The position numbers were made by a program, and so were the translations under genes. From Chthoniobacteraceae bacterium (GTDB taxonomy: Bacteria > Verrucomicrobiota > Verrucomicrobiia > Chthoniobacterales > Chthoniobacteraceae), in contig CANJNZ010000007.1 in the NCBI GenBank assembly GCA_947476045.1, positions 1 through 64,000 of the forward strand: 64,000 nt of DNA, written 5' to 3'. Below are positions 3,301 through 18,320 of the stretch, one piece after another (position 1 is the first letter of the stretch; every line of letters begins with the position of its first letter). The notes beneath the pieces were generated by a model. That model did no database searches, was not told the DNA's origin, and saw only the letters and a program-made list of their open reading frames with translations.

Positions 3301-6093
3301 TCAGCGGATGAGTTGGAATTCGGGAAGGTTCACGAGCGACCAGAGGAAGTCTGCGAGCACTTCGGGTGCGGGCTGTGAGCCGAGGAGTTCGAGCGCGATT
3401 TTCCGCTCGGTCGCGCCCGGCGGTCGGCAGAGAGACGAGAGGTAAGTGCGATCCAGCCACGCGCCGGAATCACGTGCGGCGTCGGCTGCGGTTTTGCTGG
3501 CGATGTTTTCCAGCGTGCTGTTGAGCGTCGTGCCGTTGGTGAGTTCCAGCGCCTGCAACGTGGTGGCGACGCTCGCGCGAGCGGGGATGACGATCTCACG
3601 GTTCGGACGGTCGAGCGCTACTTGCAGTGGATTGGCGGCACGGAGCGCAGCGCGGATTTTTCCGGCGTGCGCGGCGGTGCTCACGGCGGGGCTGAGCGAG
3701 CCGCCAAGTTCGACCGGGATGTTTGCGTAATCCTTGCGCGTGATCGGATCGAGTCCGGGGCCTTCGTCCACTGGCGTGACTCCGGGCGGGAGCGGCTGCG
3801 CCGTCGCCCAGTCCGCCTCGGAAACTGTAGTGCCGCCCCACACGCCTTCGGGATTGCGCCGCACGCGCCACGTTTCGTCGCTCACGATCTGGAGCGCGTC
3901 CGCTTTTTCGGGAAACACGCAGCGGAGATAGAATGCGAAGCCGCTTGTCCGGTTGAGGTGAGTTCTCGCACCTGGATATTTGTCCTGCTCGCCGGAACTC
4001 ACGTATTTTCCCGTGTGGCTGGAAACGTTGACGGCGATCAAGTTTTCCCCGGCGACGAGCAGTGGACGGAGATCATACACGGCAACTAGATCGCTGCGGA
4101 AATCGTCGTGCAAAACAGACTTCACCTCCTGCCCGTTGACGCGAACTGAAAATCCCTGACTCGCGAGGGCTGTGGCGAACGCCGTTTGTGGAACTTTCTC
4201 CAAAGTGATCCGTTTACGGAAAATCACACGATGCCGGTCGCTCTCCGGTAGCACATGATTGGTCCCAAGCTCAACCGGCGGACGCGGTGCTGTGGCTGCC
4301 GTTAGTTTTTGCTGCGCCGCCGTGAGCGCTGCCACGGCTGGCTCCAGTGCCGCACGGGCCTGCTCGATTGCCGCGCCACCCTCGGTAATCGCCGCCGCCA
4401 TTTTTGCCTGCGCATCGGCGAGTGTTTTCGTCGCCGTGTCGAGCTGCGTTCGCGCCTCCTTGAGTGCTGCGCGCTGCGGGCCGAGTTCCACCGGTTCGTT
4501 TGTCCAGACCCACTTCGGCATCTGCAAACCGCCAACGATTCCCGAGGCGGCGAAATCAAACTCCAATGAAGATGGCAGCCGCGCCCACTCGCCGCCCAGC
4601 GTGCTGAGCGCATCGCTGAACTGCTCCGCCGTGAGCCGCCGTGTGAGCGGGCCGCGAAAGACGAACTCTTCCTTTTCCCTCGGCCCCTCGACTGTCGGCA
4701 GTTGATACGTGCGCGAAGTGCAGATCGTTTCGATGGTGTGCTTCAAATCGTAGTGATGTGCGACGAGATCCTCCGCGAGCCAGTCGAGCAGGTCACGGTT
4801 CCACGCGGGCTTTTCCATGTCGTCGAGCGGCTCCACGAGTCCGCGCCCCATCAAGCGCGCCCACAAACGATTCACGATGGTGCTCGCGAGCCGTCCGTCC
4901 TTGGGGCTGGTGATGATTTCTGCGAGTCGTTTCAGACGATCGGGCTTCGCGGCCTTTCCATCGAGCGCGCCAATTTCTGGATACAAAAAACGCGCCGCCG
5001 CTTTCTTACCGGTCGGCTTGTCGCAATGGATGAGTTCCATCGTTTCGTCGGCATAAATCGCCGCGAGTCCATAGGCGTCGGCGAGCGACCAGTCGTTGAC
5101 AAAGCTGTCGTGGCAGCTCGCGCATTTCAAATTCACGCCGAGAAAAACCTGCGAGACGTTCTGGGCCGCTTGCATCGGCGGTAGCATGGAGGCGTTCACA
5201 TTTCCGCGCCAGATGATGCCGTGCGTGAAGCCCTCGCTGTCCTGCGTCGGATTCACCAGTTCGGCTACGAAACGGTCATACGGTTTGTTTTCCACCAGCG
5301 CGCGGTGCAGCCATCCGCTGATTTGTTTGCGCCCGCCATCAATGAAGCCCGCACCTTTATAGTCGTTTCGCAGCAGGTCGTTCCAAAACGTGAGCCAGTG
5401 ATCTGCGTAGTTGCTTTTGTCGGCGAGCAGCGTGCCCACGAGTTTTGCGCGCTTGTCCGCTGCGTTGTCGGCGAGAAAGGCGTCCAGTTGTTCCGGCGTC
5501 GGGAGAAGTCCGACGACATCGAGCCACACACGGCGTGCAAACGTGCGGTCGTCTACGGCATTTGGAAAACTCGTGCCCTTTTCCGCAAAGTAGCGCGAGA
5601 GAATATCGTCAATCGGATGCACGCTCGGTCGCTCTGGCAGCGTGACCGTGCGCGGATACAAATTTTGCGGCTGCGGTTTGGCGAAGGTAATCCCCGCCGG
5701 CCACGCCGCACCCTGATCAATCCACGCGCGCAGCAAACCCACCTGCTCAGCAGTCCACTTCGTTCCTTTCTTCGGCATCGCTGTTTCGGGATCGAGCCCC
5801 GACACCGCCTCGACAATCAGACTCTGTGCGCTCTTTCCAGCCACTGCCGCAACGCCCGTGTCGCCGCCTTTCAAAAACGATTCACGCGTCTCGATGCTCA
5901 GCCCGCCCTTGTCCTTCCCCTTAGCGTGGCACTTGATGCACGTGGCTTCGAAAAGAGGTTTGATTTCCTTTTCAAAATCCACCGCGCGTGCGGCTGGTGG
6001 CGGCAGTTTCTCCGCTAGCGTCGGCGATAATTCTGCTAACGCCGGGAGCGCGGACAGCAGGAAAACCGGGAGCAGGACGGAAAGCAGCTTCAT
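3301..6093 (-). CDS. PSCyt1/DUF1549/DUF1553 (PSD1) protein with inserted coiled-coil and jelly-roll-like region
   Basis: 930 aa; signal peptide, CIKCH haem motif, RRVWLDVVGLLPTPEQLDAFL, IVNRLWARLMGRGLVEPLDDM. Confidence 0.9.
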   Translation of the reverse strand: MKLLSVLLPVFLLSALPALAELSPTLAEKLPPPAARAVDFEKEIKPLFEATCIKCHAKGKDKGGLSIETRESFLKGGDTGVAAVAGKSAQSLIVEAVSGLDPETAMPKKGTKWTAEQVGLLRAWIDQGAAWPAGITFAKPQPQNLYPRTVTLPERPSVHPIDDILSRYFAEKGTSFPNAVDDRTFARRVWLDVVGLLPTPEQLDAFLADNAADKRAKLVGTLLADKSNYADHWLTFWNDLLRNDYKGAGFIDGGRKQISGWLHRALVENKPYDRFVAELVNPTQDSEGFTHGIIWRGNVNASMLPPMQAAQNVSQVFLGVNLKCASCHDSFVNDWSLADAYGLAAIYADETMELIHCDKPTGKKAAARFLYPEIGALDGKAAKPDRLKRLAEIITSPKDGRLASTIVNRLWARLMGRGLVEPLDDMEKPAWNRDLLDWLAEDLVAHHYDLKHTIETICTSRTYQLPTVEGPREKEEFVFRGPLTRRLTAEQFSDALSTLGGEWARLPSSLEFDFAASGIVGGLQMPKWVWTNEPVELGPQRAALKEARTQLDTATKTLADAQAKMAAAITEGGAAIEQARAALEPAVAALTAAQQKLTAATAPRPPVELGTNHVLPESDRHRVIFRKRITLEKVPQTAFATALASQGFSVRVNGQEVKSVLHDDFRSDLVAVYDLRPLLVAGENLIAVNVSSHTGKYVSSGEQDKYPGARTHLNRTSGFAFYLRCVFPEKADALQIVSDETWRVRRNPEGVWGGTTVSEADWATAQPLPPGVTPVDEGPGLDPITRKDYANIPVELGGSLSPAVSTAAHAGKIRAALRAANPLQVALDRPNREIVIPARASVATTLQALELTNGTTLNSTLENIASKTAADAARDSGAWLDRTYLSSLCRPPGATERKIALELLGSQPAPEVLADFLWSLVNLPEFQLIR

Positions 6094-6205
6094 GTGGATT
6101 ACCTATTCCGCGAAATCGCTGAAGTATTCCATTTGTTTTTGCGCGCGGCTTTTACTGCACTGCTTGAATTCCTGCGCCGGTTCCGATTAGAAACTCTCAC
6201 TCCAC

Positions 6206-7603
6206 ATGACCAATTCAGGACTCGCGATTCCGGCTCCAAAGATCACTCCCGTTCTTGATGAAGCATTTCGCCCTGCTATTTTGGCGAATCGCGCATTTCT
6301 TGCCGCAGTCAGGGCGTCGGGAAAAGGGCAGGCCATCCTGCTGGCGATTGAGCAGACCGATGGCTCGGTGTTTTATTTTGCGACGGAGATTTTTGCCGAT
6401 GGTGCGCCAGGTGCGGCGGGCAATTTTGTTTATGTCGAGCGGCTGGTGAAGTTCCTTTTGTGGAGTTGGGGCGGTTGGCGTGTTTATCTCGACGGCCCGC
6501 AGGCACTCGGTGATCAACTGGCAAATCACTTTCGCAAAACGGCCGCTGGCAAGTTCGACTCGCACATCATCGGAGAGAAAATTTACGATCATCCCATCGA
6601 GGTCGTCGTCACGCATGAACTGCCGCCGCCACGCGCTGTGACCAAACCGCTCGGGCGTCATCTTGACGGCTGCCGCATCGGTTTCGATCTCGGCGGCAGC
6701 GATCGCAAAGTGGCCGCGGTGATGGATGGCAAGGTGGTGTTCAGCGAAGAGACTGTGTGGGATCCATATTTTCATCCCGACCCGCAGTATCACTTCGACG
6801 GCATCATGGATTCGCTGCGCAAGGCGGCGGTGCATTTGCCGCGTGTGGACGCCATCGGTGGCAGCTCAGCGGGTTGTTACGTGAACAATCGTGTAAAGGT
6901 CGCCTCGCTGTTTCGAGGTGTGCCGGCGGATGTCTTCGGCAAACGCGTGCGCGATATGTTTCTCGATGTTCAAAAGGCGATGGGCGGCGTGCCGCTGGAA
7001 GTCGTCAATGATGGCGAAGTCACCGCGCTTGCAGGCTCGATGTCGCTCGGAAAAAACGCGGTGCTTGGCCTCGCATTCGGCACAAGCCTCGCAGCGGGCT
7101 ACGTCACACGCGACGGCAGCATCACTTCGTGGCTCAACGAACTCGCCTTCTGCCCCGTGGACTACAATCCCGCCGCGACGCGCGATGAGTGGAGCGGCGA
7201 TTACGGAGTGGGCGCGCAGTATTTTTCGCAGCAGGCCGTCGGTCGCCTGATGCCCGCCGCCGGGATCGACGTGGATTCCAAAATACCGCTGCCGGAAAAA
7301 CTGAAGCACGTGCAGTCACTCATGGCTGAGGGCGACGCGCGCGCGCGGAAGATTTACCAGACCATCGGCACGTATCTCGGCTACACCATCGCGCACTACA
7401 CGAGCTTCTATGATTTTGATCACGTGCTCATTCTCGGTCGTGTGACCAGCGGTGAAGGCGGCGATGTCATTCTCTCCGGCGCCAAGGAAGTGCTGGGCGC
7501 AGAGTTCCCGGAACTCGCCGCGCGCATCGCATTCCACACACCGGATGAAAAAGACAAGCGCCACGGCCAGGCAGTAGCCGCAGCAAGCCTGCCGCAAATC
7601 TGA
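6206..7603 (+). CDS. ROK-family (sugar kinase-like) protein with extra N-terminal domain
   Basis: GCRIGFDLGGSDRKVAAVMDGKVVFSEET, VDAIGGSSAG, LGLAFGTSLAAGYV. Confidence 0.75.
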   Translation: MTNSGLAIPAPKITPVLDEAFRPAILANRAFLAAVRASGKGQAILLAIEQTDGSVFYFATEIFADGAPGAAGNFVYVERLVKFLLWSWGGWRVYLDGPQALGDQLANHFRKTAAGKFDSHIIGEKIYDHPIEVVVTHELPPPRAVTKPLGRHLDGCRIGFDLGGSDRKVAAVMDGKVVFSEETVWDPYFHPDPQYHFDGIMDSLRKAAVHLPRVDAIGGSSAGCYVNNRVKVASLFRGVPADVFGKRVRDMFLDVQKAMGGVPLEVVNDGEVTALAGSMSLGKNAVLGLAFGTSLAAGYVTRDGSITSWLNELAFCPVDYNPAATRDEWSGDYGVGAQYFSQQAVGRLMPAAGIDVDSKIPLPEKLKHVQSLMAEGDARARKIYQTIGTYLGYTIAHYTSFYDFDHVLILGRVTSGEGGDVILSGAKEVLGAEFPELAARIAFHTPDEKDKRHGQAVAAASLPQI

Positions 7604-7695
7604 TTGGTGGCGATCTGTTGCGCGCGAGGACGCATCCTTCGTGCTTGTATTGGCCGAGTGCGGGCTTTAGGCAGCGGCGCATGTGCACATCTCCT

Positions 7696-8757
7696 ATGGA
7701 ACTAAAGTCCGTGTCTCGCTTTGCCTCTCTACTCACCCGGGCATCCGCAATTTTTCTAGCACTCCTGGCTCCGTGTGGCTGGGCAGATGAGAAGCCAGCC
7801 GTGGGACTGATTCCGCATGCGCAGCAGGCGCTGGTGATTGATGGGAAACTTGACGAATGGAAGGGCGCATTCGTCACGCCGCTGAATGCGACGCACCCGG
7901 ATGTGATGAACCGGGCGACGCTGGTTTCCTATCTTTGGGACGAGCAGGCGCTCTACGTCGGAGTGCGTGCACTGGATACAAATCCCACGCACACCGCAGG
8001 CGATAATGCGCTCTATGATGGGGACGCGATTGAATTTTATTTCGACACGCGGCAGGGCGAGGAGCTTGGCGGGAAGAGTTGGGCGCCGGGGACGCTGCAC
8101 GCTTTTTTCACCGCGATCACCGGCAAGGAAATCAAACCCCGTTTCCGTGTCCGCGACATGCCCGCGTTTAAGGGTCTCGTTTTGCAAGGAGTGGAACTGG
8201 CTGCTGTGAAAACGGACAACGGCTACACGATGGAATTCAAACTGCCATGGGCAAATTTTCCCAATATGAAACCAAAAGTGGACATGCCGCTCGGCATAGA
8301 CATCGAGATGGGGAGCGCGGACGGTGCGCGACGTGTGCACAGGACGTTTGCCTACAGTTCGCCGACGAGCGTGGGCACGCCATCGACGCATGGCCGCGTG
8401 ATGCTCGTGGACAAAGTGGATACGGCAAATGTGAAAGCATTCAGCCGTGCGCTCATGCCATTCGATGCGCAGGTGCCGGGGAATTACGGACGGATTTACG
8501 GCGTCGCGTGCATTTCGCCGACCATCGCGGACGTGGTGACGAAAGTGGATGCGTTGCTGAAGGATTCCACCGGCAAGACGAGGAAGAAAATCGAGAACGC
8601 AGGAATCAGCACAGTGGGTGATGCCATGCGAATCTGGCGCGGGGAATGGGAGACGTTCGATCTGCCAAACGGAACTTACACACTGTCGCTGACCGCCCGC
8701 GATGCGGAGGGGCACATCATCGTCGAGCGCAGTCTGCCGGTTCTGCTGGAGCAGTGA
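7696..8757 (+). CDS. Secreted CBM9-like (carbohydrate-binding family 9-like) protein
   Basis: ALVIDGKLDEWKGAFVTPL...YLWDEQALYVGVRALD...ALYDGDAIEFYFDTR; start uncertain (open ORF from 7618). Confidence 0.75.
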   Translation: MELKSVSRFASLLTRASAIFLALLAPCGWADEKPAVGLIPHAQQALVIDGKLDEWKGAFVTPLNATHPDVMNRATLVSYLWDEQALYVGVRALDTNPTHTAGDNALYDGDAIEFYFDTRQGEELGGKSWAPGTLHAFFTAITGKEIKPRFRVRDMPAFKGLVLQGVELAAVKTDNGYTMEFKLPWANFPNMKPKVDMPLGIDIEMGSADGARRVHRTFAYSSPTSVGTPSTHGRVMLVDKVDTANVKAFSRALMPFDAQVPGNYGRIYGVACISPTIADVVTKVDALLKDSTGKTRKKIENAGISTVGDAMRIWRGEWETFDLPNGTYTLSLTARDAEGHIIVERSLPVLLEQ

Positions 8758-8773
8758 GGCGTGTCTGCGTGTG

Positions 8774-9232
8774 CTATTTCGCCGCCGCAGCTTCTGGTAA
8801 TTTCGCCGACTGCCACGCAAGGAAGCGCCACTGGCCTTTCTCCTCGCGCCAGACGGCGAGGTAGCTGAGCAGCATTTCCATTTCACCATCAGCCCTCGCG
8901 ACTTTGATGCGTGTGCGTCCGCTCATCAGTGCGATGCCCGGTGCTGGGAAGGAAAAACTCCGTTCCACATACTCCCACGCGATATATTTCAAACGGCCAG
9001 CCGCGAGGGCATCCATGAAGGACGCCTTCGTGTCCACATTGCCGCTGGAGTGCGCGTAGCGGAGTTCATCGGAAAAAAGCGCGTCGAGCTTCGTGCGGTC
9101 GCTCGCGAGTGTGGCGGCTACGCGTGCGTCATCTGCTGTCTGCAAGGTTGCGGTGCGCGTTTCATCCGCGGCGCGGAGCGGGACGAATGCGATGGCGAAG
9201 ACAGACAGCAGACGGAGTAGGATGGATTTCAT
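8774..9232 (-). CDS. Secreted NTF2/SnoaL-like (DUF4440-type) protein
   Basis: LASDRTKLDALFSDELRYAHSSGNVDTKASFMDAL...ALMSGRTRIKV...WREEKGQWRFLAWQSAKL. Confidence 0.8.
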   Translation of the reverse strand: MKSILLRLLSVFAIAFVPLRAADETRTATLQTADDARVAATLASDRTKLDALFSDELRYAHSSGNVDTKASFMDALAAGRLKYIAWEYVERSFSFPAPGIALMSGRTRIKVARADGEMEMLLSYLAVWREEKGQWRFLAWQSAKLPEAAAAK

Positions 9233-9286
9233 GATAGCGACGCTGGCAGGATTTGTGGTGCTGGGGAAATCATTCGCGCCGCGAAG

Positions 9287-9679
9287 TCAGTGAACGATGG
9301 GCGATGTGTTTTGTGGAGGCGCTTGTGACGGAGGGAAGTAGCAGTGAATCGCGTCTTCGGTGAATTTCGTTTTCAATCCGAAATGTGAAAATGCGAAGAC
9401 ACCGAGGGTGAACGCACACAAAGCCAGATAGCGCTTGAGGGATTTCCGGAAATCGTGGGCGCGAATGTAAAAGCCGAACCAAACGGCGACTGAGATCGCG
9501 ATTCCAAATGTCCATGTCTGCGACACATCCCATGAGCAGGAGAAGCAGGTTTTAAAAAACGCGACCAAAACCATGCCGGGACAAAAAATGAAAACTGAGG
9601 CGGCAATCAGAATGAGAACGACAACAAGCAAAAGTTCACCACCAGTGCTGCTTTGCTTCTTTTGGGTTTGTTCGTTCAC
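9287..9679 (-). CDS. Hypothetical membrane protein
   Basis: 130 aa, several hydrophobic segments. Confidence 0.5.
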   Translation of the reverse strand: MNEQTQKKQSSTGGELLLVVVLILIAASVFIFCPGMVLVAFFKTCFSCSWDVSQTWTFGIAISVAVWFGFYIRAHDFRKSLKRYLALCAFTLGVFAFSHFGLKTKFTEDAIHCYFPPSQAPPQNTSPIVH

Positions 9680-9757
9680 AGTGAAATTGTGTTTAGCGGC
9701 TAATCCCGTTCGGAAATCGCGGGCACTCTGGGCTTCGTCTCTCCATATGAGCGAAGG

Positions 9758-10627
9758 CTAAAAGGTGAGCGTCGCACAGTTGAAGACGCCGCCGAATTTG
9801 GCCAGTGCGGTCGCCTTCACAGTCTTGATCGGCAGCGATAGATGTTTCTCAAGGATCGCGAGAGCCTGATTGTCGAGGGGATCATCGAACGTCGGGAGCA
9901 CTGCGCCTTGCGCCGTGAGGATGAAGTTAATGTAGCAACCCACTGCGGACGAGACGCCGTCGTAGTCATCATCAACAAAGCAGGGAAACGGCACGATCTC
10001 ACAGTCGAGCTTTGCGGATTGAAGAACAGCGTCCAGCTTTCGCCGATAGTCGGCGTCGCTGGAATGGCTCACAAGCAGCACTTCGCTTGAAACGAATCGC
10101 ACTATGCCGTCGGCATGACCGATCTCGTCCTCCTTTTCTGCCGGAATGAAGACAACGCGCTCGAAACCGAGGGAAATGATGGCCTTCTCGATCTCGGTTT
10201 TCGACATGCCGGAGTTATGGTCCACTAGCCTGTCCGTTACGATCCCTACGTTGCCGTTGTGAACGAGGTTCCCGCCGTCGAGCTTCAGCGGAAGCGAGTG
10301 CGGTTGGATTCCCGTTCGCTTATCGAGCCCCGCGCGCGCCTTTATGATCGCTTCCGGCGTGTAGTCGTCAGGCGCGTAGGGCGGATCGTATTGAAAGTAG
10401 CAACCTTCGACGAATCCCCAATCGCGGATCCAAATATCCAGCGGTGAATCGGAGCGGGTGAGAACCTCACCCTCGATGCCGAGCGCGCGAAACGCTTCGT
10501 GCAGTTCGGCGAACACCGGTCGAACATCAAAGCCCGGCTTCCGGTAGTCCGGCCAGATACCGGGATCGACGATGTAGAGATGCTCCTTCGCCCAATCCGG
10601 GAGCGGGTTCGATGGTGTAGTTCTCAT
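9758..10627 (-). CDS. Agmatine deiminase / peptidylarginine deiminase-family protein
   Basis: WIRDWGF, LDGGN, GHADGIVRF and FGGVFNCATL match WxRDxG, DGGN, GHxD and catalytic Cys motifs; ATG at 10627 overlaps the upstream TGA (ATGA). Confidence 0.85.
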   Translation of the reverse strand: MRTTPSNPLPDWAKEHLYIVDPGIWPDYRKPGFDVRPVFAELHEAFRALGIEGEVLTRSDSPLDIWIRDWGFVEGCYFQYDPPYAPDDYTPEAIIKARAGLDKRTGIQPHSLPLKLDGGNLVHNGNVGIVTDRLVDHNSGMSKTEIEKAIISLGFERVVFIPAEKEDEIGHADGIVRFVSSEVLLVSHSSDADYRRKLDAVLQSAKLDCEIVPFPCFVDDDYDGVSSAVGCYINFILTAQGAVLPTFDDPLDNQALAILEKHLSLPIKTVKATALAKFGGVFNCATLTF

Positions 10628-11445
10628 TTCCAAGGAATTTTTCCTTTTTCGCCGAGCCGCTCGACCAACTCACTCACCTTCGTCGGCTCGAGGTTGGCGG
10701 GGTCAAACTCGCGGAAACCGAAAGTCATTGGAAGGGCATGCACGTCGCCAAAATCTCCGACCGCAGCGTCAAGTCGTTCTTCAAACCACTGCAACCCGAG
10801 GAAACGCGAGTAGAAGCTGGCCGGAGCGAGAACTCGAAGGTGCGCGTGCTTTGCATTTCGCCATACGTCACCGTTATTTTCGATATCTTCCGAAATGATT
10901 CTGTTTTGCTTATCCACCAATCGCGCCATCGTCAGCATGAGCCCATATTGCACGATTTGAAATGCTGCCGAGATCGGCGTGTTGGACCCAACTTTCAGCT
11001 CAATGAGGACGACGCCACCATCGCCATCACTATGCGCAAAATCGAGTCCACCCGGATCACCGCTGGCACCTTCGCTTAACCCAGAGCCGGTTGGTGTCTC
11101 GTTAGACCAGTGCTTCCCTTGCCCCTCGCTCTCGATGAAGCGGGCGATTCTGCGCTGTAGCCCAACCTCAGCCTGACCTTCGCTTTCACCTTTTTCAGTC
11201 AGTAGCTTCCATCGCCAATTGGATTCGCCGCGCGATTGGCAGCCGCCTTCGACCCAGTTGACCACGATTTGTCGCCACAGCGACTCAACCAACGTCGTCA
11301 GATCTGGAAATGGTTGCTCACGTCGGTTGAGCTCGAGCGCGGTGGTTTTTGAGGCATAGCCTTTTGGTGCAGGGAGGGCATTATTGATCAGGGTGTCGAG
11401 CCCGTCGAGAAGACCGCGTTTTGGTTTGGTGGTAGGAGTGCTCAT
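10624..11445 (-). CDS. PD-(D/E)XK nuclease-like hypothetical protein
   Basis: GGLDFAHSDGDGGVVLIELKVGSNTPISAAFQIVQYG (D-X(n)-ExK plus Q); start MSTPTTKPKRGLL at 11445 overlaps the upstream stop (ATGA). Confidence 0.6.
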   Translation of the reverse strand: MSTPTTKPKRGLLDGLDTLINNALPAPKGYASKTTALELNRREQPFPDLTTLVESLWRQIVVNWVEGGCQSRGESNWRWKLLTEKGESEGQAEVGLQRRIARFIESEGQGKHWSNETPTGSGLSEGASGDPGGLDFAHSDGDGGVVLIELKVGSNTPISAAFQIVQYGLMLTMARLVDKQNRIISEDIENNGDVWRNAKHAHLRVLAPASFYSRFLGLQWFEERLDAAVGDFGDVHALPMTFGFREFDPANLEPTKVSELVERLGEKGKIPWK

Positions 11446-12731
11446 ATTTGGATTACCTCGCCATCGTGGGCGATGCGGACATTCGGCACAAGCTCCCGCA
11501 TCCGTTCGGGGCGTTCGGTGTGCATCGGGATGATGCACCGCGGCGCGAGGTGGCCGATGAGTTTTACCAAATCGTCCACCGTCGCGTGGCCGCTCGTATG
11601 ACATTCGATCAGTTCGCCGCCGCACGCTGCGAGAGCGCGTTCGAACCCGACTTGATCTTTTCGTTTTCGGTAGCCGTTCCATTGAGAATAAAGCGCGCGA
11701 GTTTTTTCCGGCAGGCCTCCGGTGAAGTCATGATCCAACATACTCGCACGGGCGAGCATGAGGAAGCGCCGCGGCTCGGCGGTGATTTCACCAAGCTCGA
11801 TGCGGCTGGCTGCGAAGCGGCGTTCGATATCGCCGATATTCCGCGGTCGGTATGTCGGGAAGAAAACGCGCATCCCCGCCTCTGCGGTGGGCAATGGGAT
11901 TTCCACTTCCGAATGAAGTAGGTGCATGATGAAAGCTGTGTAGAGATCGACGACGAAGATGCGCTTCGTGCGACGGGCGGCTTTGTAGAAAGTGACGAGG
12001 CGGTCGAGATTTTGCGGGGAGAACATCGCGAGTGTCAGTGCGGGTGCGTCGCGCAGGAGGTCGGTAATTGTTGTTTCGAGCTGCCGTTCTTTCACGCACG
12101 GCGAACGCGCATCGCGAGAGAGGTGCGTGCCTTCGAGCAGCAGCGCGTCGAGCGGGCGACCGGCGAGCGCCTTGACCAGAGCGCGGGTCATGCCCTCCTT
12201 GCGACCACGCATACGCAAATCGCCGGAGTAGAGCACGCGGGTATTGCCGTGCTCAATGAGCCATGCCACCGAGCCGTAGATCGAGTGATCCACGGAGTAT
12301 GCCGTCACCGCGAAATCACCTATTTCTTTGCGCTCCCCCGGTTCAACGATCTTCGAGCGTTCTTTCGAGAGATACACCCCAGCAGCGAATTTTTTCCCAG
12401 CGAGCAGCATCTTGCTCGTCCCGCGCGTGAGCCAGACCGGGATTTCTTTTCGCACAAGCGGCAACAGCCCGCTATGGTCTGGATGCGCATGGGAGAGCAG
12501 TAACGCGGCCACTGGTGGCCCGTCTGAAAAAAGCCCCGGCACCACGAGTGGAGCCGCAGACACGCTGGGGTCGAGCGGCGTTCCCGCGTCGAGAATCAAC
12601 CGCGTCGAGTCGCTGGCGATTTCGACGCAACTGCCGCCGATTTGATGGCTGCCGCGATGGATGATGATGCGTAGAGCTGAGGTTGTCTTTGTGGTGCTAC
12701 TCATAAGCAGGATGGGGAGAGAAGGAATCAA
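11442..12731 (-). CDS. MBL-fold/beta-CASP RNase J-like metallo-hydrolase
   Basis: LLLSHAHPDHSGLLP (HxHxDH), VLYSGDLRM, LLLEGTHLSRD, CHTSGHATVDDL, IIPMHTERPERM; start overlaps the previous stop (ATGA). Confidence 0.82.
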   Translation of the reverse strand: MIPSLPILLMSSTTKTTSALRIIIHRGSHQIGGSCVEIASDSTRLILDAGTPLDPSVSAAPLVVPGLFSDGPPVAALLLSHAHPDHSGLLPLVRKEIPVWLTRGTSKMLLAGKKFAAGVYLSKERSKIVEPGERKEIGDFAVTAYSVDHSIYGSVAWLIEHGNTRVLYSGDLRMRGRKEGMTRALVKALAGRPLDALLLEGTHLSRDARSPCVKERQLETTITDLLRDAPALTLAMFSPQNLDRLVTFYKAARRTKRIFVVDLYTAFIMHLLHSEVEIPLPTAEAGMRVFFPTYRPRNIGDIERRFAASRIELGEITAEPRRFLMLARASMLDHDFTGGLPEKTRALYSQWNGYRKRKDQVGFERALAACGGELIECHTSGHATVDDLVKLIGHLAPRCIIPMHTERPERMRELVPNVRIAHDGEVIQI

Positions 12732-13801
12732 TCATGGCGGATGAGAGCTTGAGTGGTTCGAAGCCAGGATTCGACCACTTCTTTCGTAGCAGGCGAGACT
12801 GACTGATTGCGGACGCCGGCAAGTTCTTCGATGCGCCAGTTGGTGATGTGATAAGCGATCAGCAGCGTTGCTCGGTCGGGGTTCAGCACGCGATAAAGGT
12901 AGCATTTACCCTCTGCTACTCGCTTCGCGTAACTGAGCACGCAGTGACCCATGCTGCGGGCCTCCTCAACGAGCGTGCTCCCTGAATTGATCGGACGAAT
13001 GGCGTCTATGCCGGGGAGTGGAGCCGACGGGAATAGGATGTCGTCAAAGTCCGCGTAGTCGTTCGCGGGGTCGAAGCTCTCCAAGTCAACCAGATCGCAC
13101 CATAGACGGTAGTGGCTGCGCCGAACCTGCTGCACAGAACGCAGCCGATGACCATCGGTATGGCGACGATGGGAAAATGCTTCATGTCGCGATGGGGTGG
13201 CCCAATTAAACAACCGGCACTCATTTCGAGGTGGCTGTAGAAGGTTTGCAGTTTGCCTGAGGAGCTTTCTCCATTCGCCAGCGCTTTCTTGGGTGAAGTG
13301 CATCACCAAGTCCGTAAAGAGCCCGACGCTAATATTGGGACAATCACTGAGATCGGCTGCGACGCTGAGTTCCGCCGCGCCGATGGTCGGAAGATGGGAT
13401 AGAATCGCCAAGAGAGAGTGATTGGGAAGAGCGGCCCGAACCCTTGCCAGCAAATCCACATAGCACGCCTGCGGTTGCACCTTTCTGAGGATTCGGACAA
13501 CGCGCTCGCTCGAAGGAAATCCCAAGGTTCCGCAGATTTTCCTTCGGCGCTGCCGCAACAATTCGCCGATGAATTTGCTATCAACTGTTACGAGTCCGAA
13601 GGTGTCCCAGCCATGCGCATTTGCCAGAGCCACGGCAAGCGGCGGATTGGTAAACACGAGATCAAAAGCTTCTGGAAAACAGCCAATGAACGTCCCCAGC
13701 GCGACACGCTCGTCAGGCGGGAAAAGGCTGATTTGCTGGATGGTTGAATCGTAATTTTGAAAAGTGCGCACAACGGTTTGAAGGGGGCAGACCGCAATCA
13801 T
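12728..13801 (-). CDS. PcfJ-like domain protein
   Basis: IRPINSGSTLVEEARSMGHCVLSYAKRVAEGKCYLYRVLNPDRATLLIAYHITNWRIEELAGVRNQSVSPATKEVVESWL resembles the PcfJ-like C-terminus. Confidence 0.65.
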   Translation of the reverse strand: MIAVCPLQTVVRTFQNYDSTIQQISLFPPDERVALGTFIGCFPEAFDLVFTNPPLAVALANAHGWDTFGLVTVDSKFIGELLRQRRRKICGTLGFPSSERVVRILRKVQPQACYVDLLARVRAALPNHSLLAILSHLPTIGAAELSVAADLSDCPNISVGLFTDLVMHFTQESAGEWRKLLRQTANLLQPPRNECRLFNWATPSRHEAFSHRRHTDGHRLRSVQQVRRSHYRLWCDLVDLESFDPANDYADFDDILFPSAPLPGIDAIRPINSGSTLVEEARSMGHCVLSYAKRVAEGKCYLYRVLNPDRATLLIAYHITNWRIEELAGVRNQSVSPATKEVVESWLRTTQALIRHD

Positions 13802-13812
13802 GCCCCTACTAT

Positions 13813-13818
13813 ATTATA
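13813..13818 (-). promoter_or_regulatory. Candidate -10 element (TATAAT) of the 9.76-13.8 kb cassette
   Basis: Reverse complement TATAAT lies 11 nt before the ATG at 13801; no clear -35 at standard spacing. Confidence 0.35.
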
Positions 13819-13883
13819 CGCAAGATTTGGAAATAGCTCCTACGTGCTATCCGTAAGTCGTTTACGAACACGCTGGCGACCTG

Positions 13884-14444
13884 TCATGCTGGATTCCCAC
13901 AAAGTCGCACGGGAGTGACTTCGATGGAGCGGGTGCCGTCGCCGATCCAGATGGCTCCGTCCTGCATGGTGACTTGCAATTCCATGTTGCGCTGCGCCAG
14001 CGCGGAGAGCGCGCGGCTTTGCTCGGCGGGAATCTGCCAGACGGTGAGATTCTGGATGCGGGTGAGTTTTGACTCGATGGCCTTCCACCAAACATTCGTG
14101 CTGGAGGCGAAGCTGTAAACGCTGACCCGGCCCACGCGTGAAGAAACACGGAGCAGGCGTTTTTCGTCAGGCTGGCCGACTTCGATCCAGTGTTCGATTT
14201 GGCCGGTGAGATCCTTTTGGCAGAGCGCCGGTTCGTCCACGTCCCACATATCCCTGGCGAAATCCAGAGCGCCGTGGTCGTTGTTCGGCGGCACGTTCAG
14301 TGCGAAGGCGAGCAGACGAATGATCATGCGTTCGTCTGTCTCGGAAGGGTGGCGCGCGATGGTGAGCGCGTGGTCGCCGTAGATGCCGCGATCAATGTCC
14401 GAGATCTGGATGACTGCTTTGTAGATGATTGCTTTGAGAGCCAT
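13884..14444 (-). CDS. yaeQ: YaeQ family protein
   Basis: MALKAIIYKAVIQISDIDRGIYGDHALTIARHPSETDERMIIRLLAFAL...DDEP-like...WIEVGQPDEKRL...QVTMQDGAIWIGD. Confidence 0.93.
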   Translation of the reverse strand: MALKAIIYKAVIQISDIDRGIYGDHALTIARHPSETDERMIIRLLAFALNVPPNNDHGALDFARDMWDVDEPALCQKDLTGQIEHWIEVGQPDEKRLLRVSSRVGRVSVYSFASSTNVWWKAIESKLTRIQNLTVWQIPAEQSRALSALAQRNMELQVTMQDGAIWIGDGTRSIEVTPVRLCGNPA

Positions 14445-14512
14445 GGATTTTGAGTGCGGGTGGGAGCCTTTGTCATTGCCGGAGCAAAGAAAACCAACTC
14501 CTTTGAGCGTCT

Positions 14513-14791
14513 ATGCCAAAATACATCATCGAGCGCGAAATCCCGGGAGCAGGAAAACTCACCGCCGAGCAGTTGCAGGGAATTTCACAGAAATCATGCA
14601 GCGTCCTCAGCAAACTCGGGCCGCAAATCCAGTGGGTCGAGAGCTACGTGACGGACGACAAGGTTTACTGCGTTTACATTGCGCCAAACGAAGAACTGGT
14701 GCGCGAGCACGCCAGGCAGGGCGGCTTTCCAGCCAATCGCGTATCCGAGGTGAGGACGATCATTGATCCGACGACCTCGGAGGTTGGCTAG
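14513..14791 (+). CDS. DUF4242 domain protein
   Basis: MPKYIIEREIPGAGKLTAEQLQGISQKSCSVLSKLGPQIQWVESYVTDDKVYCVYIAPNEELVREHARQGGFPANRVSEVRTIIDPTT. Confidence 0.85.
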   Translation: MPKYIIEREIPGAGKLTAEQLQGISQKSCSVLSKLGPQIQWVESYVTDDKVYCVYIAPNEELVREHARQGGFPANRVSEVRTIIDPTTSEVG

Positions 14792-14835
14792 ATTCATCGC
14801 AGTTGCGTAGGCGGCTATTTTTTGAGCAAACGCAA

Positions 14836-17100
14836 TTACGGGGTCGTGACTTTCACCCGCATGAATCTGCTCAGGGCGCTGTCCGCAGAAACTGGATCGC
14901 GTGCTTTGAGTAGTGAGGAGGTATCCGTCACGACGGTCGCGGGCAGCCATATTTTTAGGTCGCCTGAGACTTCGATGCTGAGTGTCGCATCGGAGGGCGG
15001 CAGGAAGCGGGCGATGTTGAGAGTGAGATAGTGCTGGCCGTTAAAGCTTTCGAGCACGGGAGTGGTTGAGTCACTTGCGGAAGGAAACTGAGGAGAGAGG
15101 CCCAGCGCATACTCAATGAGATCGGGGATGCCGTCGCCATCGGAATCCAACGATGCAGTGACGGTGCCCACTTTGACGGAAATAATTCCGGCACTGCTGG
15201 AGTCAACATAGCCGCCTGCATCACTAGCGATGTAGGCGAAATTGTCGGGTCCGTTGTAGCCGGGCTCCGCAAAGTAAGTCGCTACGAGCCCATTTAGCGC
15301 GACGGAACCGTGATTTGGCTGCCTGCTGATGCGCACGGTGGAGCCGGTGCCGCTGGCGCTGAGAATGAGCGATGCGCTTTGGTTTGCTGGGACCACGAGT
15401 GTTGCGTTGGCGACTGCGGGCGGAGTGCGGGTGCTTGGGTTGCTGCTGTTCACGCCGTTGTGGCACACGTAGCAGCTCACTTCCGTTCCGCGCGCGAATT
15501 TCTTGGTTCCGTATTTGGTGCTGAAACTACGGTCAGTCGCAGCACGGGAAAGCACTGTGCCGCGATAGTCGGTGCCGTGACATGCCTGACACGTGGCAAG
15601 GCCGACAGCTCGCGCGGAATCGGCGTGGTTGTTTACCCAGTTTGAACTGATCGAGTGCATCCCATGCGGGCCGCCCGTGGTCGTTTTCGGCATCGTGGCA
15701 TGGCATGCTGTGCATTCCATGAGAACTCCTACGTGGCCCTGGATTTGCACGCTCTGGACGTTGTCGTTGCGATGGGCGGAGGGGAATTCGGCATGGGTGG
15801 AGCCGTGGCATGCTTCACATTGCAGGCCACCGTGTCCTTTGGAAAAGCGGTAGAGTGATTTTCCGGGCGCAGGCGTATCGGGGTTCGTCGCGAAAAGGGT
15901 GCTGGCGGGGACGCGGAAGCTGCCCGTGGTATCGAAGGAACTTGTGTAGCGAATCTGGCCGTTGTTCTGCGTTGCGCTGCCCGTATGACAGGTCTGGCAG
16001 CCGGGTTCGTCCAACCATCCTGTGCGATTCAGTGCTCCCACTTGACTCATCGTGCCGTGGCAGCTCTGGCATTGCATGGACATGGATCCGTCCTGCGCCA
16101 CTGCCGCTCCCATCGCACCGCGCAGGCAGCGCGTGGTGGAGCCGGGATGGCATTGGTAGCACGCGCTTCGGTTCGCGATATTATCCATCTTCAAGCCGTT
16201 GCTCGGGTTGGTGACGTTGGCGTGTTTCGCGTGCATCGAACGGGTAAGCGGATCAACGCCCGGCGCACCGGCGGTCCCGAGTGCTTCGGAAGCGTGACAC
16301 TTGGCGCAAAGGATCGGCGTGTTCGTGAGAGTGACTGTCTTAAACAGCCCGTCTGCGCGAAATCCATTCGCTGCGAGCGCTGCTTGATACGCACTCTCTG
16401 TGAGATGTTTCTCGTCGTGAAGTCGCAGGATGTTCAGGCGGTAATCGCGCTTGGCAATCGGGTCGTTCACCCAGCCGCCAGCCGGCTTTGCCTCCGCGCC
16501 AGCGCCGGAGCCGTGGCACGCGCGGCAGTCCATTTCGCCGGATACGGGCAACACCACATCCGTTTTCGCAAGCACGGTGCCGATAGTGTTTTTGGCAACG
16601 AGGCGCATCATCGGGTAGGCGTTTGCGCGACCAACGTCATCAATCGGCGTGATGGGGATACCCACGCCCTCGAACCAATTGAAACCGGTGTTCCATGTCA
16701 GTGGCTGCGGCGTGTTCGCGATTCCGGGCATCGCGGTTCCTGCCAGTCCTGCATTCATCGGCAGCGTTGCGCCATACGCTGCTGGCAGGTAGTCCCAAAA
16801 GTTCGTTTTGCCTGCGGAGGTGCGGTTGATTGAGCCGTCAAGATCAGCGACCGCCTCGTAGGACAGCGACAGGCCAGTTGGCGAAAGCTCCAATTTCCCC
16901 TGAGCATTGATGAGCTGCGCATTCACGGTGTTGAACGGCGGCAGGATCGTAAAAACGGAATAGTCATCGTCCATGCAGTGCATGCCGAGATTGTTCCAGC
17001 CGATGAGCGTCCATTGGCCATTGCCAGCGGGCGCGTTTGAGTGAATGGCGACGAACAGTGCCGCCAGAAGTGCAAACCGAATAGTTTTGAAGGGGCTCAT
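14836..17100 (-). CDS. Multiheme cytochrome c with C-terminal Ig-like region
   Basis: Signal peptide; nine CxxCH motifs counted (CRACH, CAKCH, CYQCH, CQSCH, CQTCH, CEACH, CTACH, CQACH, CYVCH). Confidence 0.9.
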   Translation of the reverse strand: MSPFKTIRFALLAALFVAIHSNAPAGNGQWTLIGWNNLGMHCMDDDYSVFTILPPFNTVNAQLINAQGKLELSPTGLSLSYEAVADLDGSINRTSAGKTNFWDYLPAAYGATLPMNAGLAGTAMPGIANTPQPLTWNTGFNWFEGVGIPITPIDDVGRANAYPMMRLVAKNTIGTVLAKTDVVLPVSGEMDCRACHGSGAGAEAKPAGGWVNDPIAKRDYRLNILRLHDEKHLTESAYQAALAANGFRADGLFKTVTLTNTPILCAKCHASEALGTAGAPGVDPLTRSMHAKHANVTNPSNGLKMDNIANRSACYQCHPGSTTRCLRGAMGAAVAQDGSMSMQCQSCHGTMSQVGALNRTGWLDEPGCQTCHTGSATQNNGQIRYTSSFDTTGSFRVPASTLFATNPDTPAPGKSLYRFSKGHGGLQCEACHGSTHAEFPSAHRNDNVQSVQIQGHVGVLMECTACHATMPKTTTGGPHGMHSISSNWVNNHADSARAVGLATCQACHGTDYRGTVLSRAATDRSFSTKYGTKKFARGTEVSCYVCHNGVNSSNPSTRTPPAVANATLVVPANQSASLILSASGTGSTVRISRQPNHGSVALNGLVATYFAEPGYNGPDNFAYIASDAGGYVDSSSAGIISVKVGTVTASLDSDGDGIPDLIEYALGLSPQFPSASDSTTPVLESFNGQHYLTLNIARFLPPSDATLSIEVSGDLKIWLPATVVTDTSSLLKARDPVSADSALSRFMRVKVTTP

Positions 17101-17252
17101 AGCGCTACCTTGCTGCGACTAAATGAACCCCGAATAAAACGGCGATGAAACTTCCTTAAGAGTTCGTGTGTTCCTCTTAGCCTCCTGGCGGTTCAGACAG
17201 AGCAGAGCTTCTCGCAGCATTGACTTCATCCAGCGCGCGGTGAAGATCCGCC

Positions 17253-18320
17253 ATGCTCATCAAACGCTGGCAGCGATTTTTCGCACGCACCCTCCCCATT
17301 ATCGTCGCGTCCGGTCTGTTTTGTTTCGTTGCACCAGCGGCGGAAAAGTTGGACGAGAATCCTGCATCCGATGGCGATGGAAGTTTCACCGTTGGCCCCG
17401 AATACAAAACAGACCCCGACCTCACGGATCGCGGGAACCCCAAGGGGAAGTCGTTTGTGTTTTCGATGCCGCTGGCCGCGAGCAAGATTTTCCCGGGCAC
17501 CGATAAGACGCTCGAACCCGACAAAAAGCCCGTGCGGGTTGAGCGCAAAATCACGGTCTATGTGCCCGCCGCCTTCAAGGACGGCAGCAAGGCTCCCGTG
17601 CTCATCATTCACGACGGGCCGGGTCAGATTGGTTTTGTGCGCAACGCTCTCGATAATCTGACGATTTCCAAGGACCCGAACCGCACGCTGCCTGCGTTCA
17701 TCGCGGTGGCCGTCGAGAATGGCGGCAACGATGGGAAGAACAGCGAGCGCGGTCTGGAATACGATACGATGTCCGACCGGCTGGCGCGGTTCATTCACGA
17801 CGAAGTCCTGCCTGCGGTGCTGAACAATGTGGAAATCAAAGCCGCCTATCCGCGCATCGCCTTCACGGAAAATCCGTGGGGTCGCGCGGTGATTGGTTGC
17901 AGCTCGGGCGGCGCGGCGGCGCTGACGATGGGATGGTTCCGCCCCGATTGGTTCCGGCGCATCATCGCGTATTCGGGCACTTTCGTGGATCAGCAGGATG
18001 ATGACGCACCGGAGGAGGTAAAGTTTCCGCTCGGCGCGTGGGAATATCACTCCGGGATGAAGCTCATCGAAACCAGCGAGGTGAAGCCGTTGCGCATCTT
18101 CACACACGTCTCCGAGCAGGACCTTCGCGCAAATGACGCAGAGGAAACCAACCACAATTGGGTGATGGCCGGTCAGCGCACTGAGGCCGCGCTTCAAGCC
18201 AAAGGTTACCGCCACCGCTTCATTTTCAGCAAAGGCACCGGCCATTGTGACAAGCGTGTCTTTGAGCAAACACTGGCCGACACGCTCGTGTGGGTGTGGC
18301 GCGGCTACCGCGCGGAGTGA
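17253..18320 (+). CDS. Esterase (enterochelin esterase/IroE-like alpha/beta hydrolase)
   Basis: KITVYVPAAFKDGSKAPVLIIHDGPG...WGRAVIGCSSGGAAALTMGWFRPDWFRRIIAYSG...GTGHCDKRVFEQTL. Confidence 0.82.
   Translation: MLIKRWQRFFARTLPIIVASGLFCFVAPAAEKLDENPASDGDGSFTVGPEYKTDPDLTDRGNPKGKSFVFSMPLAASKIFPGTDKTLEPDKKPVRVERKITVYVPAAFKDGSKAPVLIIHDGPGQIGFVRNALDNLTISKDPNRTLPAFIAVAVENGGNDGKNSERGLEYDTMSDRLARFIHDEVLPAVLNNVEIKAAYPRIAFTENPWGRAVIGCSSGGAAALTMGWFRPDWFRRIIAYSGTFVDQQDDDAPEEVKFPLGAWEYHSGMKLIETSEVKPLRIFTHVSEQDLRANDAEETNHNWVMAGQRTEAALQAKGYRHRFIFSKGTGHCDKRVFEQTLADTLVWVWRGYRAE

Follow-up and report, generated by a model that had tools for sequence, protein, structure and literature searches.

RNase J (TIGR00649) and EF2904 (PDB 2az4) combine the metallo-beta-lactamase (MBL) and beta-CASP folds and carry an HxHxDH motif, later His/Asp ligands and the HxSGH and PxH motifs, and in type VII CRISPR-Cas a beta-CASP nuclease, Cas14, serves in a defence role. 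NucS, Cas4/RecB, Exo5, CARF-PD-(D/E)XK proteins and Shedu SduA present the residue order E, D, ExK, Q/E..Y, and agmatine deiminase and Porphyromonas-type PAD carry WxRD, GHxD and GG..C signatures. Type I restriction-modification joins a conserved catalytic part to an exchangeable specificity part. In the 64,000-nucleotide stretch of Chthoniobacteraceae bacterium DNA analysed here (contig CANJNZ010000007.1, positions 1 to 64,000; hereafter the window), we studied a minus-strand cassette which encodes a PcfJ-like protein, an MBL protein with the RNase J/EF2904 features, a protein with the same order of residues as the PD-(D/E)XK enzymes and weak structural matches to them (third open reading frame, ORF3; its family is called ExK below), and a deiminase with the three signatures named above.

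A conserved gene pair with an exchangeable partner

The MBL family, gathered by sequence alone from GTDB contigs, plasmids and viral contigs, is a supported clade when set against three outgroup rows, and its tree does not track phyla. The broadly conserved unit in this family is the MBL (beta-CASP) protein together with an ExK protein, their genes being adjacent or fused in most family loci. In a blind motif scan, in which a script applied one fixed D..ExK pattern to all open reading frames (ORFs), an ORF with the pattern lay within 2.5 kb of the MBL gene in 25 of 35 family loci, compared with 3 of 267 background ORFs (Fisher p ~2e-25, the relatedness of the loci being ignored) and with 2 of 16 loci of outgroup MBLs. 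Reading added partners in the window itself, which the ORF caller had dropped, in loci L065 and L117, and in the Shewanella fusion L071. Since the pattern was composed after the first partners had been read, a held-out sample provides the stricter test of the pairing. From 388 evenly drawn genomes of the phylum, nine new MBL loci were obtained in nine genomes, and an ExK partner was adjacent in all seven evaluable ones (six by the pattern, L169 by reading); L168 and L176 were not evaluable, as their contigs stop on the 3′ side, 494 and 2 bp past the MBL gene. The two proteins are fused into one of 747 aa in three Shewanella genomes and are encoded by two overlapping genes in S. canadensis. In L075 the MBL protein has a C-terminal extension that resembles the beginning of an ExK protein, at the point where the contig ends. 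The pair spans Verrucomicrobiota, Planctomycetota, Omnitrophota, Melainabacteria, Bacillota and Pseudomonadota.

Within this pair, the ExK partner evolves faster than the MBL protein, and it has been swapped between loci that are otherwise alike. The MBL proteins of L050 and L113 are 81% identical and their ExK proteins have no detectable similarity (E 0.52); L172/L175, L117/L171 and L077/L081 likewise combine similar MBLs with dissimilar ExK partners. A block swap was seen when the cassette of genome G001 was compared with a second cassette in the window's own genome (G000). Here the PcfJ proteins are 89.5%, the deiminases 90.8% and the products of a WYL gene 97.7% identical, and the flanking DNA is ~92-93% identical, but the MBL gene from about codon 80 onwards and the entire ExK gene have been replaced.

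The MBL protein has the motifs of the beta-CASP superfamily (HxHxDH, the later H and D, and C-terminal HxSGH/PxH motifs) and an RMMBL domain, with HxHxDH, H140 and D162 invariant in 43 of 43 aligned rows and H395 kept in 42 of 43. It scored 55 bits against Lactamase_B_2 (cut-off 27) and 29.6 bits against RMMBL (cut-off 21.6), and the nearest solved structures are 2az4 (EF2904) and RNase J, with CPSF-type enzymes also near. The first-pass annotation of this DNA, made from the letters and their ORFs, had named an RNase J-like enzyme, which is borne out for fold and motifs and not at the level of TIGR00649 (47.7 bits, where the cut-off is 400). These structural neighbours would suit an accessory RNA-processing or repair pathway, the RNase J-like protein serving to mature some cellular RNA; however, the family is mobile and has a patchy distribution (present in 10 of the 388 genomes sampled from the phylum), the partner changes while the MBL stays, and no Rfam RNA was found in the cassette region, which makes such a role very unlikely.

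ORF3 is likely a PD-(D/E)XK protein, as judged from its motifs and a predicted model. In the ExK alignment D135, E149 and K151 never vary and Y167 hardly does, and the residues follow the same order in a proteobacterial ExK group (E130, D159, E176, K178, Q197 and Y201), so that the family displays the PD-(D/E)XK pattern of an acidic helix residue, then D and ExK, then a Y/Q helix. The model (predicted template modelling score 0.73; mean predicted local distance difference test 66.8) has the order helix-strand-strand-strand-helix-strand, which fits PD-(D/E)XK topology. Foldseek returned weak matches, the best of which were mostly PD-(D/E)XK proteins (Exo5, NucS, Can2, MspJI and SduA), and many named matches in a viral set were PD-(D/E)XK enzymes too; in a profile search of PDB sequences, the sole match was NucS (E 0.31). 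The first-pass suggestion of a PD-(D/E)XK nuclease is thus backed by the motif set and the predicted core, with weak structural matches and no Pfam family above cut-off, and these same motifs and core speak against the other outcome it had allowed for, an ORF3 without a nuclease fold. When the profiles of the two ExK clades were compared, the match was no more than suggestive (E 5.8e-4, probability 29%), so that a single origin of the ExK partners as a whole is only a possibility.

Several other genes were seen beside the pair. A protein with an N-terminal hydrophobic segment and a lipase-like GHSLGG motif is encoded between the MBL and ExK genes in L062 (5796-6947), and homologous 350-aa proteins are encoded beside the ExK gene in L173 (2756-3811) and L082 (12178-13230). 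A calcineurin-like phosphoesterase gene is beside or near the MBL gene in L109, L111, L076 and L080. The MBL gene is adjoined in L104, L105, L106, L112 and L062 by a gene for a small protein of ~125-158 aa with GIFW, PRGR and D.HYR motifs, which has no Pfam family; two of the loci with this protein are plasmid loci lacking an ExK partner.

Mobility, neighbours and a proposed function

A closely related MBL was found in 3 of 147 relatives. Copies are carried on plasmids of Rhizobium, Ochrobactrum, Sphingomonas, Cereibacter, Cupriavidus, Butyrivibrio and Prevotella, and tblastn with ORF3 found no plasmid relative. Among IMG/VR viral contigs, L113 holds a complete cassette and others hold MBL/ExK pairs. 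Together with an empty site (below), this distribution supports the mobile setting suggested at first pass for the two putative nucleases. A collection of 50,697 annotated phage genomes contained no relatives of the MBL or PcfJ proteins. When viral contigs were scanned with alignments of the deiminase and of PcfJ, no relative was confirmed; both scans are judged insensitive, since the one with the MBL picked up the full cassette of L113.

Carriage on viral contigs could mean that the cassette serves mobile elements, as a weapon or as a means of maintenance (in host takeover, superinfection exclusion or anti-defence), and not host defence, and the copy in L117 has on either side ORFs that, on reading, resemble tail genes. 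Most copies, however, are on bacterial contigs, several of them beside WYL, McrBC or AbiE genes, and with no match in the phage collection we regard this explanation as quite unlikely. Selfish stabilisation in the manner of a toxin-antitoxin pair, in which one of the nucleases is a toxin and its partner counteracts it or clears its product so that the carrier plasmid, prophage or island is kept, would account for two or three overlapping genes, for plasmid and viral-contig carriage and for one partner that diverges fast. It is unlikely nonetheless, given that the catalytic residues are intact in both partners, that the genes are bigger than is usual in such pairs and that several MBL genes have no ExK partner.

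We favour, with a probability of roughly 55%, the reading that the cassette is a mobile module of defence type directed against mobile elements, with a two-nuclease core and an exchangeable ExK specificity subunit. From the Shewanella fusion and the block exchange we infer that the MBL and ExK proteins form a complex as its two subunits. The swappable ExK protein would recognise foreign nucleic acid and nick or cut the target, and the conserved MBL subunit, as the processing effector, would break down the RNA or DNA from its exposed end. PcfJ, the arginine/guanidine deiminase and a small membrane protein may be lineage additions which tune or extend the response. A defence-type context, one of the possibilities raised at first pass, is seen for relatives of the cassette. 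McrBC-like genes adjoin L077 and L079 (by reading), and PADLOC matches among 108 neighbours include AbiEi/ii, HmaA/DrmD, IetA-like and TRIP13. A model trained on the family loci detected WYL-type regulators in 11 of these 44 loci and in none of the 21 outgroup loci.

Some observations weigh against this reading. The control for defence-gene enrichment is confined to the outgroup loci, which are few and lie on contigs of differing taxa, and neither YaeQ nor DUF4440, the genes that flank the cassette in the window, is a defence gene. A clear ExK partner is missing from five of the first 35 loci, of which L066 and L075 are near contig ends and L106, L111 and L112 are not; in L116 the partner has no clear ExK. 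The G000 side of the block swap consists of two draft contigs joined through a 124-bp overlap, which is unique in the assembly. No PDB structure matched the ORF3 model at an E value below 0.001.

The five-gene segment of the window

The four minus-strand ORFs described at first pass were confirmed at their positions (Table 1). All junctions had been reported as ATGA overlaps, which is correct for MBL/ORF3 and ORF3/deiminase; the PcfJ/MBL junction is TTGA and requires the TTG start at 12731, and if the in-frame ATG at 12704, 27 nt further on, is used instead, a gap of ~23 nt results. Overlapping stop/start junctions are common in bacterial operons and are weak evidence by themselves. The family calls held above Pfam cut-offs for PcfJ, MBL/RMMBL and PAD_porph and not for ORF3. 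The PcfJ protein scored 33.2 bits against PF14284 (cut-off 25), in its C-terminal part only, and the deiminase 72.2 bits against PAD_porph (PF04371; cut-off 25). Sigma-70 and terminator scans found sites no commoner than in shuffled sequences; a TATAAT is present shortly upstream of the PcfJ start, for which the sigma-70 scan gave no support.

Table 1. Features of the variable segment and its flanks in the window
Feature	Position	Strand	Evidence or remark
PcfJ-like protein, gene 1, 357 aa	12728..13801	-	PF14284 5.4e-8, residues 268-340; orthologues
MBL/beta-CASP nuclease-like protein, gene 2, conserved core	11442..12731 (TTG) or from ATG 12704	-	Lactamase_B_2 + RMMBL
PD-(D/E)XK-like ExK protein (ORF3), gene 3, 273 aa, conserved yet fast-evolving MBL partner	10624..11445	-	motifs, model
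PAD_porph-type guanidino deiminase, gene 4, 289 aa, lineage-restricted	9758..10627	-	PAD_porph 5.7e-20
Small membrane protein, fifth gene, 130 aa, GTG start	9287..9679	-	homologue in L113, remnant in L052
Inserted segment, ~4.6 kb relative to the G006 site	9290..13896	.	YaeQ/DUF4440 ~72 bp apart in G006
YaeQ family gene, left flank, outside cassette	13884..14444	-	PF07152 1.2e-67
DUF4440 gene, right flank, outside cassette	8774..9232	-	PF14534 4.1e-16

In the same-genus genome G006 the whole inserted segment is missing between the YaeQ and DUF4440 genes; this comparison is of one genome pair, in which gain and loss of the segment are not separable. The YaeQ gene is present in nine of ten genomes of the genus. 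A fifth gene, overlooked at first pass, falls within the segment. Its product has three hydrophobic segments as judged by eye. L113 encodes a homologue with 58% identity directly 3′ of its ExK gene, and L052 has a 71-bp DNA remnant of the gene in the same place.

The full set of PcfJ, deiminase, MBL and ExK recurs in three further loci: in G001 (L050/L061), in a second copy in the window's own genome that is split across contigs C71 and C64 (L051/L052), and on the viral contig L113. The four genes hence do co-occur elsewhere, a point on which the first-pass proposal could have failed. In these three loci the order is PcfJ-deiminase-MBL-ExK, and in the window the deiminase gene lies 3′ of the ExK gene; the genes overlap or are closely spaced in either order. 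Orthologues of the window's PcfJ protein, with 60-67% identity to it, are encoded in L050, L051 and L113. The further step of taking the four-gene set as one functional unit had to be given up, as most MBL-family loci have neither PcfJ nor deiminase and only the MBL and ORF3-type proteins form a unit across phyla. PcfJ and deiminase accompany the pair only in the window's genus and on one viral contig, with one additional locus of deiminase and MBL, and together with the membrane protein they look lineage-restricted. An ORF in L114 (46-918) that resembled PcfJ by eye was rejected, since it matched neither Pfam nor the PcfJ profile.

The deiminase keeps D69, D117, H171, D173 and C284 in all five aligned rows, with Asp at position 117 where Glu is usual. 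The PAD_porph score and the retained catalytic residues uphold the earlier assignment at the level of the guanidino deiminase family and not at that of agmatine deiminase, as the protein scored far below the cut-off of AguA (TIGR03380; 36.7 bits against 381.8). A deiminase of the same subfamily is encoded near the MBL gene in L066, and a more distant one ~4 kb away in L111. Since four loci include the deiminase gene in the cassette and the protein's catalytic residues are retained, we also considered a unit for guanidino metabolism or protein citrullination to which the nuclease pair is incidental. Yet only five of the MBL-family loci read carry a deiminase, plus one more distant case, and the deiminase gene of this genome's second cassette (C71:304-1161, L051) has a single in-frame TGA, being otherwise 91% identical to the G001 copy; we consider such a unit highly improbable.

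Three further observations concern these sites. Directly after YaeQ in G001 (contig C59, L152:1400-1700), where the window has the cassette, there are short tandem repeats with units containing CTCCGCAAGGTTGTTTTAAGG. A DUF932-type gene lies beside the G001 cassette (L050:5830-6981) and near the second G000 copy (L051:7207-8229) and is absent at the window site. Related-looking AAA ATPases are encoded between deiminase and MBL in L066 (8446-9669) and ~10 kb from the second cassette in L051 (11145-12245).

Comparison with described systems

The MBL/ExK pair is probably an anti-invader system not described before, even if its folds are known. None of the four window proteins was matched by PADLOC 2.0 (2023) at E values up to 1, and some relatives of the cassette proteins had weak Cas4/CARF-PD-(D/E)XK matches; in the open-access literature we found no paper that describes the pair. 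If the pair is what it seems, an MBL and a PD-(D/E)XK protein that sometimes form one polypeptide would make up a sizeable undescribed nuclease system in several phyla. Should both the defence role and the subunit logic be true, it would represent a new class of immune system, a heteromeric PD-(D/E)XK and beta-CASP MBL pair with an exchangeable PD-(D/E)XK specificity subunit, to which an arginine deiminase was added in one lineage. We put forward this last proposal only tentatively, and think it rather doubtful as a whole; if true, it would give guanidine deimination its first role in such an immune system. In any case, the deiminase variant raises the question of protein or guanidine deimination in defence, and partner exchange at otherwise similar loci offers a direct handle on what sets specificity.

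Set against the systems named at the outset, the cassette differs from each. Unlike RNase J, its MBL protein is ~420 aa long, is encoded beside a PD-(D/E)XK-like gene, and is accessory and mobile. Type VII CRISPR-Cas has different partner genes, and an assignment to it was rejected (Cas14 24.5 bits against a cut-off of 800; no CRISPR-like array in window positions 5000-18000). In contrast to PD-(D/E)XK nucleases such as NucS, the ExK protein belongs to no Pfam family above cut-off and is paired with a beta-CASP MBL, and unlike AguA, the deiminase has DGGN in place of EGG and sits in a nuclease cassette. With type I restriction-modification, whose methylase, translocase and HsdS-like genes the cassette lacks, the likeness is by analogy only, in that the cassette, too, appears to join a conserved part to an exchangeable one.

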